Shown: piece by piece, positions 54,477 through 59,845 of the stretch
Layout of the letters: every line of letters starts with the position of its first letter
Position numbering within the stretch: the stretch's first letter is position 1
Source of the DNA: an uncultured Micrococcales bacterium
Lineage (GTDB): Bacteria > Actinomycetota > Actinomycetes > Actinomycetales > Microbacteriaceae
Assembly: GCA_913062975.1 (NCBI GenBank)
Contig: CAJXZO010000001.1
Coordinates: 1 to 64,000 of the forward strand
Reading direction: 5' to 3'
Length of the DNA stretch: 64,000 bases
Translations under genes and position numbers: made by a program
Notes under the pieces: model-generated
Databases searched by the model: none
The model's input: only the letters and a program-made list of their open reading frames with translations
What the model was told of the DNA's origin: nothing

Positions 54477-55583
54477 GTGCGCATAGGTATTCCCACCGAG
54501 GTCAAAGACAGTGAAGCTAGGGTTGCGATCACTCCAGCTGGAGTTAAAGCACTCACCGAACACGGTCATCAGGTAAGTGTTCAAGCTGGTGCTGGTTTGC
54601 TCTCTGGAATCAGTGATGCTGAATACGTTGAGGTGGGTGCAAAAATCACCGAAACTGCCGAACAAACATGGGCAGAAAACGAATTGGTCGTCAAGGTAAA
54701 AGAGCCAGTGAAGAGCGAATACGGCTTTCTTCGCAAAGACCTAACCCTTTTTACCTTCCTGCACCTAGCAGCAGAGACTGAGCTAACCAAGGCACTGCTG
54801 AGTTCTGAGACAACATCCATTGCCTATGAAACAGTGCAGCAGGGAAGACACCTTCCGCTTTTAGCTCCCATGAGTGAGGTTGCTGGAAGGCTAGCTCCAC
54901 AAATGGGCGCATCCACCCTTCAAAAAAATAATGGTGGTCTCGGTGTTTTACTCGGAGGAGTTCCAGGAGCGCGTTCGGCGAAGGTAGTGGTGCTTGGCGG
55001 AGGAGTCAGTGGCACCAGTGCTATTGAAATAGCCCTTGGAATGGGTGCACAGGTAACTGTTTTGGACACCTCCCTCCCCCGACTAAGAGAACTCGATTTT
55101 CACTATGGAGGAAGGCTAAATACAATCTTCTCCAACAGCCTAGAAATCGAAAAGGCTGTTATCGATGCGGATCTAGTCATTGGTGCGGTGCTCATTCCAG
55201 GAGCAAAAGCCCCGAAACTGATCTCCAATGAACTTGTTTCCAAAATGCGTGAGGGAAGCGTTTTAGTGGACATTGCAATCGATCAGGGTGGTTGCTTCGA
55301 AGATTCCCGCCCAACAACACACCATGAGCCAACCTTCAAGGTTCACGGAAGCGTCTTTTACTGCGTAACAAACATGCCAGGTGCCGTGCCGCACACCTCC
55401 ACCTTTGCACTGACCAATGCCACCATGCCCTATTTGATGAAGATTGCAAACATGGGTTGGGATAAGGCAAGCAAGTCAGATGATTCCCTGCTTGCTGGCT
55501 TGAACACGCACGCGGGAAAGGTCTATAACGCGGGCGTTGCTGAGGCCCACGGTTTGGCTTTGGCTGATTCTAGAAACCTGTGA
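54477..55583 (+). CDS. ald: Alanine dehydrogenase
   Basis: NAD-dependent interconversion of alanine and pyruvate. 368 aa; MRIGIPTEVKDSEARVAITP N-terminus, pyruvate-site residues, and the Rossmann motif VVVLGGGVSGTSA near residue 172. GTG start with AAAGAG five bases upstream. The last 108 bp are overlapped by an FtsK-like gene on the other strand. An Lrp-type regulator nearby (56593) is a likely controller, as known for ald in mycobacteria. Confidence 0.95.
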   Translation: MRIGIPTEVKDSEARVAITPAGVKALTEHGHQVSVQAGAGLLSGISDAEYVEVGAKITETAEQTWAENELVVKVKEPVKSEYGFLRKDLTLFTFLHLAAETELTKALLSSETTSIAYETVQQGRHLPLLAPMSEVAGRLAPQMGASTLQKNNGGLGVLLGGVPGARSAKVVVLGGGVSGTSAIEIALGMGAQVTVLDTSLPRLRELDFHYGGRLNTIFSNSLEIEKAVIDADLVIGAVLIPGAKAPKLISNELVSKMREGSVLVDIAIDQGGCFEDSRPTTHHEPTFKVHGSVFYCVTNMPGAVPHTSTFALTNATMPYLMKIANMGWDKASKSDDSLLAGLNTHAGKVYNAGVAEAHGLALADSRNL

Positions 55584-56492
55584 CTGCCCCAACGGGAAAT
55601 TGAAATCAATCTGACCCTCCGCTAGTTGAGCACTGGCCCAATTGGGAGCAATGGGTTTGCGTCTTTGCTTGGAAAGACCCATCTGCATCGCATCAACCTG
55701 ATCAACTGCCCCCACCCCGATTTTTTGAAGGCAATTGGCCATCAGGGCACGAGAAACACCACTGAGGGTTTGACTTGCCGCAAACAGATATACTCCTAAA
55801 GCGCGTCCCTTGGTTGCAACATTGTCAATCATTGCGGCTGCTTTCGCAGAGCTTTTGACAACACTTGCAAGCTCATCAACTAATAGAATCATCGGCTTTG
55901 GGTTTATGCTCTCAGCGAGATCTCGTTCTCTTAATGAAAGCTCATTCTCAACCATCTCCAAAAACTCATTGAAATCATCAGACTGATTGCTTACCACCCA
56001 TTCAATTCCAAATGCTTTTGAAAAACCCAAGCCACCCTTGAAATCAATTACAACCAATCGTTCCGGCCAGCTCTCAATCAAATTTCTGAGAAACTCGGTT
56101 TTGCCACTTCCGGTTGGACCGATGATCAGCGTGTGGGAGGGTTTTAGTGGGACAACCTCACCATCAGATTTGATGCCAGCCTTCAGCACTGACTTGGCAT
56201 CCAAAAACCCATCCAATAAAACCTCTGAGGCTGGCCTCTCAAGCATTCGCAATAACCTCAGGTTCAGCCAAGTTGGCCAGAACAAACTAAACCCCCTGAG
56301 CCTTCTGCCACCAACGGCCACTCCCGCCAGACCGAGTTCAATCTCATCCGATTTTGTGAGCGGCTTCTTGGCCTTAATCAAAATCCAAATAAGCATTGTC
56401 AATAAACCAATTGCAGTGAGGTGCCACATCCCCTGGCTCAGACCTAGAAAGATTCCATAACCAAGCGTTGGAAGCAAAAACAAAATACTCAT
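55476..56492 (-). CDS. Small membrane FtsK/SpoIIIE-like ATPase
   Basis: 338 aa. Two N-terminal membrane helices (about 3-18 and 22-40), a linker, then one motor domain with Walker A GPTGSGKT (125-132), Walker B MILLVDE (201-207), and a sensor-like FAASQTLSGVSRALMANC stretch. It lacks the gamma domain and the long linker of the true FtsK at 27772, and the multi-ATPase form of type VII EccC. Substrate unknown. Its last 36 codons lie antisense to the end of ald, so the tail may be poorly constrained. Confidence 0.75.
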   Translation of the reverse strand: MSILFLLPTLGYGIFLGLSQGMWHLTAIGLLTMLIWILIKAKKPLTKSDEIELGLAGVAVGGRRLRGFSLFWPTWLNLRLLRMLERPASEVLLDGFLDAKSVLKAGIKSDGEVVPLKPSHTLIIGPTGSGKTEFLRNLIESWPERLVVIDFKGGLGFSKAFGIEWVVSNQSDDFNEFLEMVENELSLRERDLAESINPKPMILLVDELASVVKSSAKAAAMIDNVATKGRALGVYLFAASQTLSGVSRALMANCLQKIGVGAVDQVDAMQMGLSKQRRKPIAPNWASAQLAEGQIDFNFPLGQSQVSRISQSQTVGLSNARVIDLSRVRVQASKQGII

Positions 56493-56592: not shown

Positions 56593-57048
56593 ATGAGCCA
56601 AGATGTTGATGATCCAATAAATCTAAAAATCATCGCCCTGCTCAATGAGAATGGGCGAAGAAGTTTTACCGAGATGTCTTCACTTCTAGGAATCAGTGAA
56701 GCCGCAACCAGGCAAAGAGTGAACAAGCTGGTTCAAAGTGAGGTCATTCGTATTGCTGGTATACCCAACCCACTAGCACTTGGCTACGCACGAAAAGCGA
56801 TGATTGGTATTCGGCACAGTGGTGCTGTCACGGAACTGTCGGAGCAACTCAAGTTACTTCCAGAGGTGTCTAAGGCGGTTGTCACAGCGGGCGGGTTCGA
56901 TGTGTTGATTGAGGTCATCTGTGAAGACGATGAGCACCTGGTGAGGCTGATCAATGAAAACATTCGAGCTCTTCCGGGTGTTCAAACAACAGAGACATTT
57001 GTTTATCTGCAAGAGGAAAAACAAATCTATGAGTGGACGGGAAAATGA
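56593..57048 (+). CDS. Lrp/AsnC-family regulator
   Basis: 151 aa. An N-terminal winged helix (about 7-55, DPINLKIIALLNENGRRSFTEMSSLLGISEAATRQRVNKL) and a C-terminal RAM ligand-binding domain (about 70-140). Probably senses an amino acid and may act on ald and gabT nearby (context inference). Its stop overlaps the ogt start as ATGA. Preceded by TATGTT at 56567-56572, a possible -10. Confidence 0.88.
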   Translation: MSQDVDDPINLKIIALLNENGRRSFTEMSSLLGISEAATRQRVNKLVQSEVIRIAGIPNPLALGYARKAMIGIRHSGAVTELSEQLKLLPEVSKAVVTAGGFDVLIEVICEDDEHLVRLINENIRALPGVQTTETFVYLQEEKQIYEWTGK

Positions 57049-57515
57049 CCCATCAACAGAGCTATAAATCCCCAGTTGGTGATCTGATTATCAAAGCGGA
57101 TGACTTTGCAATCACTGAAATTAAGTTTGGGACTTCGCCAATTGAAAACAAAAGCCCGCTAACCGAACGCGCTGTGGCGCAACTGGATGAATATTTCGGC
57201 TCCAGACGTAATGATTTTGATTTACCTCTGATGCCAAAAGGAACAGAATTTCAAAGGGCGGTCTGGGAGGAGCTTATAAAGATTCCCATCTCCAAGACCT
57301 TCAGCTATGTACAGCTTGCTGAGTTGGTTGGAAAACCAAAAGCCGCAAGGGCTATTGGTGGTGCAGTGGGTGCGAACCCAATCGCCATTGTCATCCCCTG
57401 TCACCGAGTGCTGGCATCGGATGGGAAAATAACTGGCTACACCGGTGGTGATGGAATCAAGACCAAGCAGTCACTTCTCAAACTGGAAGGTGCCCTAGTT
57501 GAATCAAGCAGCTGA
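57045..57515 (+). CDS. ogt: Methylated-DNA-protein cysteine methyltransferase
   Basis: Suicide repair enzyme for O6-alkylguanine. 156 aa from ATG 57045 (ATGA overlap with the regulator gene); GTG at 57033 is an alternative. Acceptor Cys in IPCHRVL, and the conserved GAVGANP before it. Overlaps the tag gene by 17 bp, forming an alkylation-repair pair. Confidence 0.94.
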   Translation: MTHQQSYKSPVGDLIIKADDFAITEIKFGTSPIENKSPLTERAVAQLDEYFGSRRNDFDLPLMPKGTEFQRAVWEELIKIPISKTFSYVQLAELVGKPKAARAIGGAVGANPIAIVIPCHRVLASDGKITGYTGGDGIKTKQSLLKLEGALVESSS

Positions 57516-58044
57516 TGGCTTAATCCGTTGCCACTGGTGCTCGCAAGATCCGGTTTACATCGACTATCACGATCAGGAGTGGGGTCGAGAAGTAACGGGA
57601 AATGACCAGCTATTTGAAAAAATTAGCCTGGAGGGTTTCCAGGCTGGTCTGAGTTGGTTGACGATTCTCAAGCGCAGGGAAAACTTTCGAGAAAGTTTTG
57701 AGGGTTTTCAAATCAAAAAAGTTGCCCAGTTTTCTGATTCCTTGGTGGATCAGCTGATGCAGAACTCAGGAATCATCCGAAATCGCAAAAAAATTGAATC
57801 TGTTATCAACAACGCCAGAGTTATAAGAGATTCAGGCATTGACCTATCCGAAATGATTTGGTCTTATAAGCCCGAGGTGGACCCAGATGACCACACTCGA
57901 ACCACCTCGAGTGAATCGATCGCGCTTTCTAAAAAACTAAAATCCATGGCTTTTAGCTTTGTTGGGCCAACCACGATGTATGCGATGATGCAGTCAATTG
58001 GGATGGTCAATGACCACGATCCAAATTGTTTTCTAAAAAACTGA
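57499..58044 (+). CDS. tag: DNA-3-methyladenine glycosylase I
   Basis: Base-excision glycosylase for 3-methyladenine. 181 aa; zinc site residues in CHWCSQDPVYIDYHDQEWG at the N-terminus and CF near the C-terminal end, with LEGFQAGLSW forming the helix-hairpin region. TTG start with AAGGTG six bases upstream, inside ogt. Confidence 0.93.
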   Translation: MNQAADGLIRCHWCSQDPVYIDYHDQEWGREVTGNDQLFEKISLEGFQAGLSWLTILKRRENFRESFEGFQIKKVAQFSDSLVDQLMQNSGIIRNRKKIESVINNARVIRDSGIDLSEMIWSYKPEVDPDDHTRTTSSESIALSKKLKSMAFSFVGPTTMYAMMQSIGMVNDHDPNCFLKN

Positions 58045-58073
58045 AAGGAATCCCTGACTGGAAACATAATCAG
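58042..58073 (+). promoter_or_regulatory. Candidate promoter of the ECF-like sigma gene
   Basis: TGAAAG (58042-58047), 17-bp spacer, CATAAT then CAG (58065-58073). The same bipartite motif with the same spacing occurs before the downstream gene (58551-58582). It overlaps the tag stop codon. Confidence 0.5.
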
Positions 58074-58087
58074 TCCAGGAGGAGCAA

Positions 58088-58564
58088 ATGAACCCTGAGC
58101 AATTTCAATCAGTATTTAGAGAATTTCTAGACCCAGTCTCTAAATTTCTAGCTCGACGAGTTGAACTCGATTCGGTTGAGGACCTAGTCGCTGACGTTTT
58201 TGCCGTGGCGTGGAGCAAAAAAGATCAGATACCAACTGGGTTTGAACTTCCATGGCTTTATAAAACCGCAAGGTACGTGATTGCCAATCACAGAAGAAAA
58301 AATCAAAGTGGAATCAAGTTGCTCCTTGCTCTGAAAGCTCCGGTTTCAGCTCCGAGTGCCGAGGCGATCGCCCTTGCAGAATTTGGCCTTGCTGAGGCCT
58401 GGCAAGGCCTTACAGAAAAACAGCGTGAGCTACTTTCTTTGTCTGCATTTGAGAATTTATCGAGTAAAGAAATAGCCAAGGTCTTAGAAATAAGTCAAAA
58501 CTCAGTGAACATAAGACTGACCAGGGCAAGAAAGAAATTTGCCGAGTTATTGAAAGAAAACTAA
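58088..58564 (+). CDS. ECF-like RNA polymerase sigma factor
   Basis: 158 aa. Region 2 covers about 5-72 (VEDLVADVFAVAWSKKDQIPTGFELPWLYKTARYVIANHRR) and region 4 about 100-152 (GLTEKQRELLSLSAFENLSSKEIAKVLEISQNSVNIRLTRARKKF), with no region 3, as in extracytoplasmic-function sigmas. AGGAGGAG precedes the ATG. The next gene encodes a membrane protein that may be its anti-sigma factor. The target genes are unknown. Confidence 0.88.
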   Translation: MNPEQFQSVFREFLDPVSKFLARRVELDSVEDLVADVFAVAWSKKDQIPTGFELPWLYKTARYVIANHRRKNQSGIKLLLALKAPVSAPSAEAIALAEFGLAEAWQGLTEKQRELLSLSAFENLSSKEIAKVLEISQNSVNIRLTRARKKFAELLKEN

Positions 58565-58582
58565 ACGGGAAAACATAAACAG
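58551..58582 (+). promoter_or_regulatory. Candidate promoter of the sigma-partner gene (leaderless)
   Basis: TGAAAG (58551-58556), 17-bp spacer, CATAAA then CAG (58574-58582). The -10-like hexamer ends six bases before the ATG at 58586, so the mRNA would be leaderless. It overlaps the end of the sigma gene. Confidence 0.5.
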
Positions 58583-58585
58583 ATT

Positions 58586-59845
58586 ATGAACAACGAATTT
58601 GATGACCTAGAGGCTCGACTAAGAAAAGCTGATGTTGAGCAACCCGCATTGGATGATTCGGTTTTGGAGACTGCGACCAAATCAAAAAAGCCAAATCTTC
58701 CAAATCACCGAGCCTATAAATTCGGGCTCACTAGTGTTGCATCTGTGGCTGCTCTCGTCGTTTTAGTAACCGCCCTGCCCCAACCTGGACCAACAATCCA
58801 GCTGGCCTCCTCCAACCTGGTAGCTGACACCTCCGCAGAGGATTCCAGCATTGCTGAGGGTCTTCCCGGCTGGTTTAGCCCCTACGAATACACAGCCTCT
58901 GAGAATCTTTCCGAATCAGGATCTCAAGGTGCTGTATATGAGCTGGCTTTAGAGGGCGACCCAAGATCAAAAATGCGAGACTTCGCTTCTCTCTTTGGTG
59001 AAACAGGTGAGATTCGATTAGAGGAATATTCAACTGATTTTTTCCCAAACTATTCACTTGAAACGGAAGATTCCTACTTCTCGCTTGGCTGGCACGGTTC
59101 TGCAATTATCAATTACTCTTCAAAGAGAAATTGGCTAGCTGATGAGTGCTACCAGCGAGATGAGCAAGAGACTATCGAATCAGTCCCTGAATCCCAGGAA
59201 AACTGTGAACCACTTCCTGTTGCAGAGCTTCCTTCTGAGCAGGAACTGACCGACAAAGCTTTTGAGCTTATTTCAGCCGCTGGCTACCCCGGCACCAGAG
59301 AAAATATTTCCGTCATTCGCTATCAATGGGGCGCTGAGGCATACGCAGCCACATTCATTGACAATCAAGAGACAGCAATTCAGTGGTATGTAGCTTGGGA
59401 TCAAACCGCTCAAATCTCAAGCGTCAGCGGGCATTTAGCCATTCCAGAATACGTAGGAGATTTTGACACCGTTGGTGCCTCCGAAGCAGTTGGCAGAATC
59501 CAAGACGGTTATTGGTTTGGCGTTCCGGCTCCCTCAAATTACGACCGTGGCGTAACCAACTTCGACACACCAGTCTCGAGTGAGCCAATTCCAGATTCAT
59601 TACCTGACGAGATGAGTGGGGGCGAAAGTTCAGCATCCGGGTCGCTACCTAGTGAGCCAATGCCCGAAGATTTTGAAATGGAGGCGATTCAGCTAACCAT
59701 TGAGTCTGCAACGGAGGCAATCCTTCTTATCGAAGATGCCAACGGCAAGGGCTGGTTGGTGCCGGGGTATCTTCTGCAAACCAGTGAGGGTTGGTTTGAA
59801 TCAGTGGTTTCATTGGATCAGGGAGTGATTCAACCGCCAAACTGA
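58586..59845 (+). CDS. Membrane-anchored sigma-factor partner (putative anti-sigma/sensor)
   Basis: 419 aa, not a recognised family. A short acidic cytoplasmic N-terminus (1-44), one membrane helix (about 46-64), and a large exported acidic domain (about 70-419) with two cysteines (in ADECYQRDEQ and QENCEPLPV) that could form a disulfide, plus a Ser/Pro/Glu-rich linker (about 328-365). There is no HxxxCxxC zinc anti-sigma motif. The 21-bp spacing from the sigma gene and shared promoter motif argue for joint function; which signal is sensed is unknown. Confidence 0.72.
   Translation: MNNEFDDLEARLRKADVEQPALDDSVLETATKSKKPNLPNHRAYKFGLTSVASVAALVVLVTALPQPGPTIQLASSNLVADTSAEDSSIAEGLPGWFSPYEYTASENLSESGSQGAVYELALEGDPRSKMRDFASLFGETGEIRLEEYSTDFFPNYSLETEDSYFSLGWHGSAIINYSSKRNWLADECYQRDEQETIESVPESQENCEPLPVAELPSEQELTDKAFELISAAGYPGTRENISVIRYQWGAEAYAATFIDNQETAIQWYVAWDQTAQISSVSGHLAIPEYVGDFDTVGASEAVGRIQDGYWFGVPAPSNYDRGVTNFDTPVSSEPIPDSLPDEMSGGESSASGSLPSEPMPEDFEMEAIQLTIESATEAILLIEDANGKGWLVPGYLLQTSEGWFESVVSLDQGVIQPPN

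Follow-up and report, generated by a model that had tools for sequence, protein, structure and literature searches.

A candidate ECF sigma factor and membrane-anchored anti-sigma factor with a shared, nearly private promoter in the order that holds Microbacteriaceae

Anti-sigma genes that are transcribed from a promoter of their own are known from two actinobacterial systems. In Corynebacterium glutamicum, rshA has its own SigH-dependent promoter within a SigH regulon of dozens of genes, which was proposed to provide fast shutdown of the response (PMC3489674), and in the BldN-RsbN system of Streptomyces, rsbN likewise has its own sigma-dependent promoter (PMC4255298). Autoregulation is thought to apply to about 55% of ECF sigma factors (PMC8103513). 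An anti-sigma end made of two helices is known from CnrY (PMC4598750), and proteins of the YycI/YycH type tune the WalK kinase in Bacillota (PMC8399564). The window analyzed here, a stretch of 64,000 nucleotides from an uncultured bacterium of the Microbacteriaceae, contains an ECF-type sigma gene followed by the gene of a membrane protein (Table 1). A preliminary description of the window had proposed a sigma/anti-sigma pair under a shared promoter, and we consider it likely that the two proteins are an ECF sigma factor and a membrane-anchored anti-sigma factor with a shared, near-private promoter. Binding and inhibition are the parts we infer, and the proposal is supported by conservation over 91 loci, confinement of the motif to the locus, its presence in 0 of 10 genomes without the sigma factor, and the joint loss of sigma and the N-terminus of its partner. 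By sequence comparison, the pair is found through the order that holds Microbacteriaceae, and the partner is probably the inhibitor of the sigma factor.

The sigma factor consists of two regions only and scored above the cut-off of NCBIfam TIGR02937 (60.1 bits; cut-off 42.9), which places it among the ECF sigma factors. It matched Pfam Sigma70_r4_2 with an E of 1.6e-14 (53.7 bits; cut-off 25.7), and its score against Pfam r2, 21.8, fell just below the cut-off of 24. The best solved-structure matches include CnrH with the two-helix anti-sigma factor CnrY (4cxf; PMC4598750). For the partner, the preliminary description had given an inside end of about 44 residues, one helix, an acidic exported domain with two cysteines and no zinc motif, all of which we confirmed. 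A hydrophobic segment centred on residues 46-64 follows an N-terminal part of about 44 residues, and basic residues ahead of the membrane place that part inside. AlphaFold predicts two short helices within it (residues 5-14 and 24-32) at moderate confidence (pLDDT 57-78). The exported part carries a net charge of -49 and holds the only two cysteines of the partner, at residues 188 and 207, and HxxxCxxC, the zinc motif of class I zinc anti-sigma factors, was not found in the partner.

Table 1. Coordinates of the locus and its neighbours within the window.
Feature	Position	Strand	Details and basis
Lrp/AsnC gene	56593-57048		Pfam
O6-methylguanine methyltransferase (MGMT) gene	57033-57515		Pfam
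3-methyladenine glycosylase (Tag) gene	57499-58044		Pfam
Sigma gene promoter	58042..58073	+	-35 TGAAAG, 17 bp, CATAATCAG; exact match; kept in congeners and other genera; family form TGAAAGA-N13-CGACATA
Shine-Dalgarno AGGAGG of sigma gene	58077..58082	+	Sequence reading; leader present
ECF-type sigma factor, 158 aa, sigma2 and sigma4 regions only	58088..58564	+	Pfam and NCBIfam matches
Leaderless partner promoter, overlapping sigma gene 3' end	58551..58582	+	TGAAAG, 17 bp, CATAAACAG; exact match
Membrane partner, 419 aa, putative anti-sigma factor	58586..59845	+	Adjoins sigma gene in 91 loci; co-loss of sigma and N-terminus
Residues 1-44, cytoplasmic end, putative sigma-binding part	58586..58717	+	AlphaFold; absent in six sigma-less relatives
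Single transmembrane helix, about residues 45-66	58718..58783	+	Hydropathy peak at residue 46
Exported domain, predicted YycI/YycH-like fold, acidic	58871..59842	+	AlphaFold, Foldseek
Two conserved exported-domain cysteines	Codons 59147-59149 and 59204-59206	+	Family-wide conservation of 90% or more

Both genes are preceded by perfect copies of TGAAAG-N17-CATAA[T/A]CAG, the two blocks lying exactly 17 bp apart, as had been noted from the window at the outset. The first three bases of the sigma gene promoter, TGA, are also the stop codon of the 3-methyladenine glycosylase gene (58042-58044). A scan of the whole genome had been proposed along with the motif, and we performed the regulon scans with strict motifs on the draft genome, which comprises 1.14 Mb and is 79% complete. 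The only exact copies were those before the sigma and partner genes; one site with a single mismatch lay inside an open frame, and weaker sites were mostly within genes. Allowing up to three mismatches in the window gave 6 sites where 4.4 were expected, among which the two upstream of the genes were again the only exact ones. A profile trained outside the genus ranked these two sites first and second in the 64 kb. However, random sequence reaches similar scores, so that in a genome this rich in AT the profile score has no significance by itself and, within the window, position rather than score carries the case for a promoter.

To the eye, the two sites of this AT-rich genome resemble the -35 TTGACA and -10 TATAAT of an ordinary housekeeping (sigma-A) promoter and could be written as TTGAAA-N18-CATAAA/T. 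The -10 block of the window, AAACATAATCAG (AAACATA), is a drifted form of the block conserved in relatives, CGACATA, which one congener has retained before the sigma gene (L010) and another before the partner gene (L011). High-GC relatives have CGACATA or CGACACA as their -10 instead of TAnnnT, the spacing does not vary, and the motif is bound to the locus and missing where the genome has no sigma factor. A housekeeping promoter is thus extremely unlikely, and we rejected it on the basis of the CGACATA block in relatives and the confinement of the motif to the locus.

A profile search for the partner returned 72 matches in 400 genomes of the family and 62 in 396 genomes of the order, and the loci were then fetched. 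The 91 loci with both genes were scored for TG[A/C]AAGR-N13-CGACA[T/C]A at up to two mismatches, with some positions treated leniently. Of these loci, 80% had the motif ahead of the partner gene and 53% had it ahead of the sigma gene; the corresponding figures for shuffled upstream DNA were 1.9% and 1.2%. Some relatives do keep the genes without it, an outcome that the preliminary description had counted against its own reading: the motif preceded both genes in 41 loci, the partner gene only in 32, the sigma gene only in 7, and neither in 11. Promoters of the same locus were more alike than those of different loci (11.7 versus 10.3 of 14 positions; 0 of 5000 permutations), as expected if one protein reads both. 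Upstream motifs can be common by descent, yet the -35 element of the partner overlaps sigma C-termini that differ across genera. Judged by its conservation over the 91 pair-bearing loci, the shared motif is a real promoter. The partner gene had also been assigned a second, leaderless promoter, which is supported by its geometry: in 46 of the 48 loci of the core Microbacteriaceae clade, the ATG of the partner lies exactly 8 nt past the -10 block, which suggests that the partner message is leaderless in this clade. In outer lineages, the partner message is not leaderless.

Autoregulation of the sigma gene, another claim made from the window, appears to hold for part of the lineages, including that of the window, but not for several high-GC genera in which only the partner gene has retained the promoter. 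In several high-GC genera whose sigma gene is without the shared promoter, other conserved sequences stand instead ahead of a leaderless sigma ATG: AACGTTGGG (variant AACGTCGGG) at about -44 and AGACTG (variant ACACTG) at -11, as seen in the 75 nt upstream of the gene in loci L024-L028, L030, L031, L033-L035, L038, L045 and L068. These two sequences are too far apart to be a -35 and a -10, which suggests that the element may be an activator site. Such different elements upstream of the sigma gene indicate that cascades exist, and a second ECF sigma factor or an activator might by extension be what reads the shared motif. We regard this reading as very unlikely because the motif tracks the presence of the sigma factor, including its loss in three genomes (G012, G279 and G186).

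At zero or one mismatch, 26 of the 30 pair-bearing genomes contained the consensus, and none of the 10 that lack the sigma factor did. The preliminary description had named random placement of the motif as the finding that would speak against it; in the genomes scanned at this stringency, 33 of 39 sites were at the sigma/partner locus, and one more preceded a paralogous sigma gene. A search of ten genomes at zero to two mismatches did not reveal a large regulon, and the extra sites were scattered, being mostly intragenic or single. By these scans the motif is nearly confined to the sigma/partner locus, with weaker promoter variants elsewhere being possible. The promoter of the paralogous ECF sigma gene (L119; G099, C1, about 1001480) is of the type described here, CGAAAGATC...CGACATA. 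The membrane protein encoded behind this gene has a short N-terminus, DRELRQQLGAADPA, that resembles the one of the partner, but its exported part differs.

Two genomes of genus g96 (L120 and L121) conserve TGTAAGAACCGC-N-CTCGACATA upstream of a small protein that resembles putative immunity proteins; its gene may be another target of a related sigma factor. In two other genomes (L117 in G116 and L118 in G177), a perfect consensus is embedded in conserved sequence and is not closely followed by a gene start; it is probably due to chance, although both genomes have it.

In six relatives the partner is present and a sigma orthologue is absent from the whole genome, where the best match to the sigma factor has an E of 1e-9 or weaker, as opposed to 1e-65 or better in pair-bearing genomes. 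The partners of all six are without the conserved N-terminal motif L..RL..A....P.L...V, while their membrane helix and exported domain are kept, and the promoter motif was not found at these partner genes; the sigma-less genomes tested for its loss include G012, G279 and G186. On the tree, two independent changes are needed, one in genus g31 and one in G012, and G012 has kept the gene order MGMT-Tag-partner-YaaA, from which the sigma gene alone has dropped out. Two of the sigma-less partner genes (L069 and L070) have TAGAAT near their start, which is similar to the -10 of a housekeeping promoter, as though another promoter had taken over. The joint loss of the sigma factor, the N-terminus of the partner and the promoter suggests that the N-terminus binds the sigma factor and that the sigma factor is what reads the promoter. 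This evidence is indirect and strong, as it is for the exported domain having a use of its own that was retained after sigma loss. These natural losses amount to a clean test of both the sigma-binding part of the partner and the solo role of its exported domain.

The same losses bear on whether the partner is instead an envelope effector and the sole product of the sigma factor, such that the exported domain is what the cell needs and the cytoplasmic end may tune the sigma factor. Retention of the exported domain in two lineages that lost the sigma factor and the cytoplasmic end, together with the near absence of other promoter sites in the 30 pair-bearing genomes, is in line with an effector. 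However, the joint loss of sigma and N-terminus is best explained by sigma binding, as is the similar N-terminus on another exported domain behind the paralogous sigma gene, and weaker promoter variants may exist elsewhere; we consider the effector reading unlikely. Somewhat more plausible, although still doubtful, is that the sigma factor controls essentially only itself and its partner, with the exported WalI/WalH-like domain as the real output. If so, the exported domain was retained under a different promoter in the two lineages that dropped the sigma factor together with the docking end.

The exported domain was modelled by AlphaFold with a pLDDT mostly above 90. In Foldseek searches only YycI structures fell below an E of 0.001, the best being 2o3o (E 5.8e-7, prob 1.00), and VIA-align gave Z scores of 10.8 (5coz), 9.6 (YpeB, 5boi), 9.6 (YycI, 2o3o) and 8.8 (YycH, 2fgt). 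An independent AlphaFold model, built for a member that belongs to a different family within the order, returned the same set of fold matches. For the two models, respectively, the Foldseek match to 2o3o had an E of 5.8e-7 and 2.6e-5 (prob 1.00), and the VIA-align Z was 9.6 (rmsd 7.0 over 201) and 10.5 (rmsd 6.0 over 203). The profile search of this domain suggested in the preliminary description gave no useful family match, and the likeness came from the models: no YycI/YycH-type Pfam match was found among 50 members, and Pfam, NCBIfam and the PDB yielded no useful sequence relatives. With 6-14% identity to YycI/YycH structures and no kinship in profile or PDB sequence searches, the resemblance is one of fold only, and we conclude that the exported domain has a predicted YycI/YycH (WalI/WalH)-like fold.

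Next to the pair, the preliminary description had pointed to two alkylation-repair genes and an Lrp-type regulator. Pfam matches bear this out for the window, but as a general feature it is lineage-specific: the repair genes adjoin the pair in three genera only and, among loci long enough to show it, the Lrp neighbour occurs only in the genus of the window. We therefore rejected a link of the pair to alkylation repair or Lrp control. Beside the Lrp gene lies a short FtsK/SpoIIIE-like ATPase gene (55476-56492, minus strand; 338 aa), which is in the same place in a congener (L017).

In the circuit that we propose, the cytoplasmic end of the partner, with about 44 residues and two short helices, would hold the sigma factor at the membrane until a change sensed by the exported WalI/WalH-like domain releases it. 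Free sigma factor would direct RNA polymerase to TG[A/C]AAGR-N13-CGACA[T/C]A. The site upstream of its own gene would give positive feedback in part of the lineages, including that of the window, and the separate promoter of the partner, leaderless in the core clade, would raise the level of partner and shut off the response.

In comparison to SigH-RshA and BldN-RsbN, the locus would have the same arrangement of an ECF sigma gene followed by an anti-sigma gene with its own sigma-dependent promoter, for which the evidence from sequence is strong. RshA is a zinc-type soluble anti-sigma factor, whereas the partner is anchored in the membrane and its short end is zinc-free; the promoter is TGAAAGA-N13-CGACATA, without the canonical AAC and CGT elements, and hardly any other target turned up in the scans. 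A likeness to CnrH-CnrY (class II) may lie in the short cytoplasmic end, with its two helices predicted at moderate confidence, and CnrH is among the best solved matches of the sigma factor; CnrY is not known to have a large sensory exported domain. The CU044_5270 family comprises actinobacterial membrane proteins that often follow ECF sigma genes. One of 50 partner-family members matches it weakly (E 0.007) and 49 do not, and the partner of the window has no match to its NCBIfam model, NF038083. Because anti-sigma genes with their own promoter are already known from rshA (PMC3489674) and rsbN (PMC4255298), the circuit is of a known kind, and the "new type" of the preliminary description applies instead to the protein family and its promoter, to the WalI-like exported domain and to the near-private regulon, which look new in comparison with the systems named here. 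The precise, near-private promoter of this order-wide family could serve as an orthogonal expression part. YycI/WalI, YycH/WalH and YpeB resemble the partner in single-pass membrane anchoring and in the predicted exported fold of two independent members, but not in sequence, as no sequence match was found. The known proteins of this kind act on a histidine kinase (WalK) or a cortex lytic enzyme rather than on a sigma factor, and the WalRK two-component system is not among the neighbours in the window (Lrp, MGMT, Tag, sigma, YaaA and ATP synthase genes). Taken together, these comparisons suggest that a WalI/WalH-like sensor fold, known in Bacillota from the control of a histidine kinase, is here carried by a putative actinobacterial anti-sigma factor.
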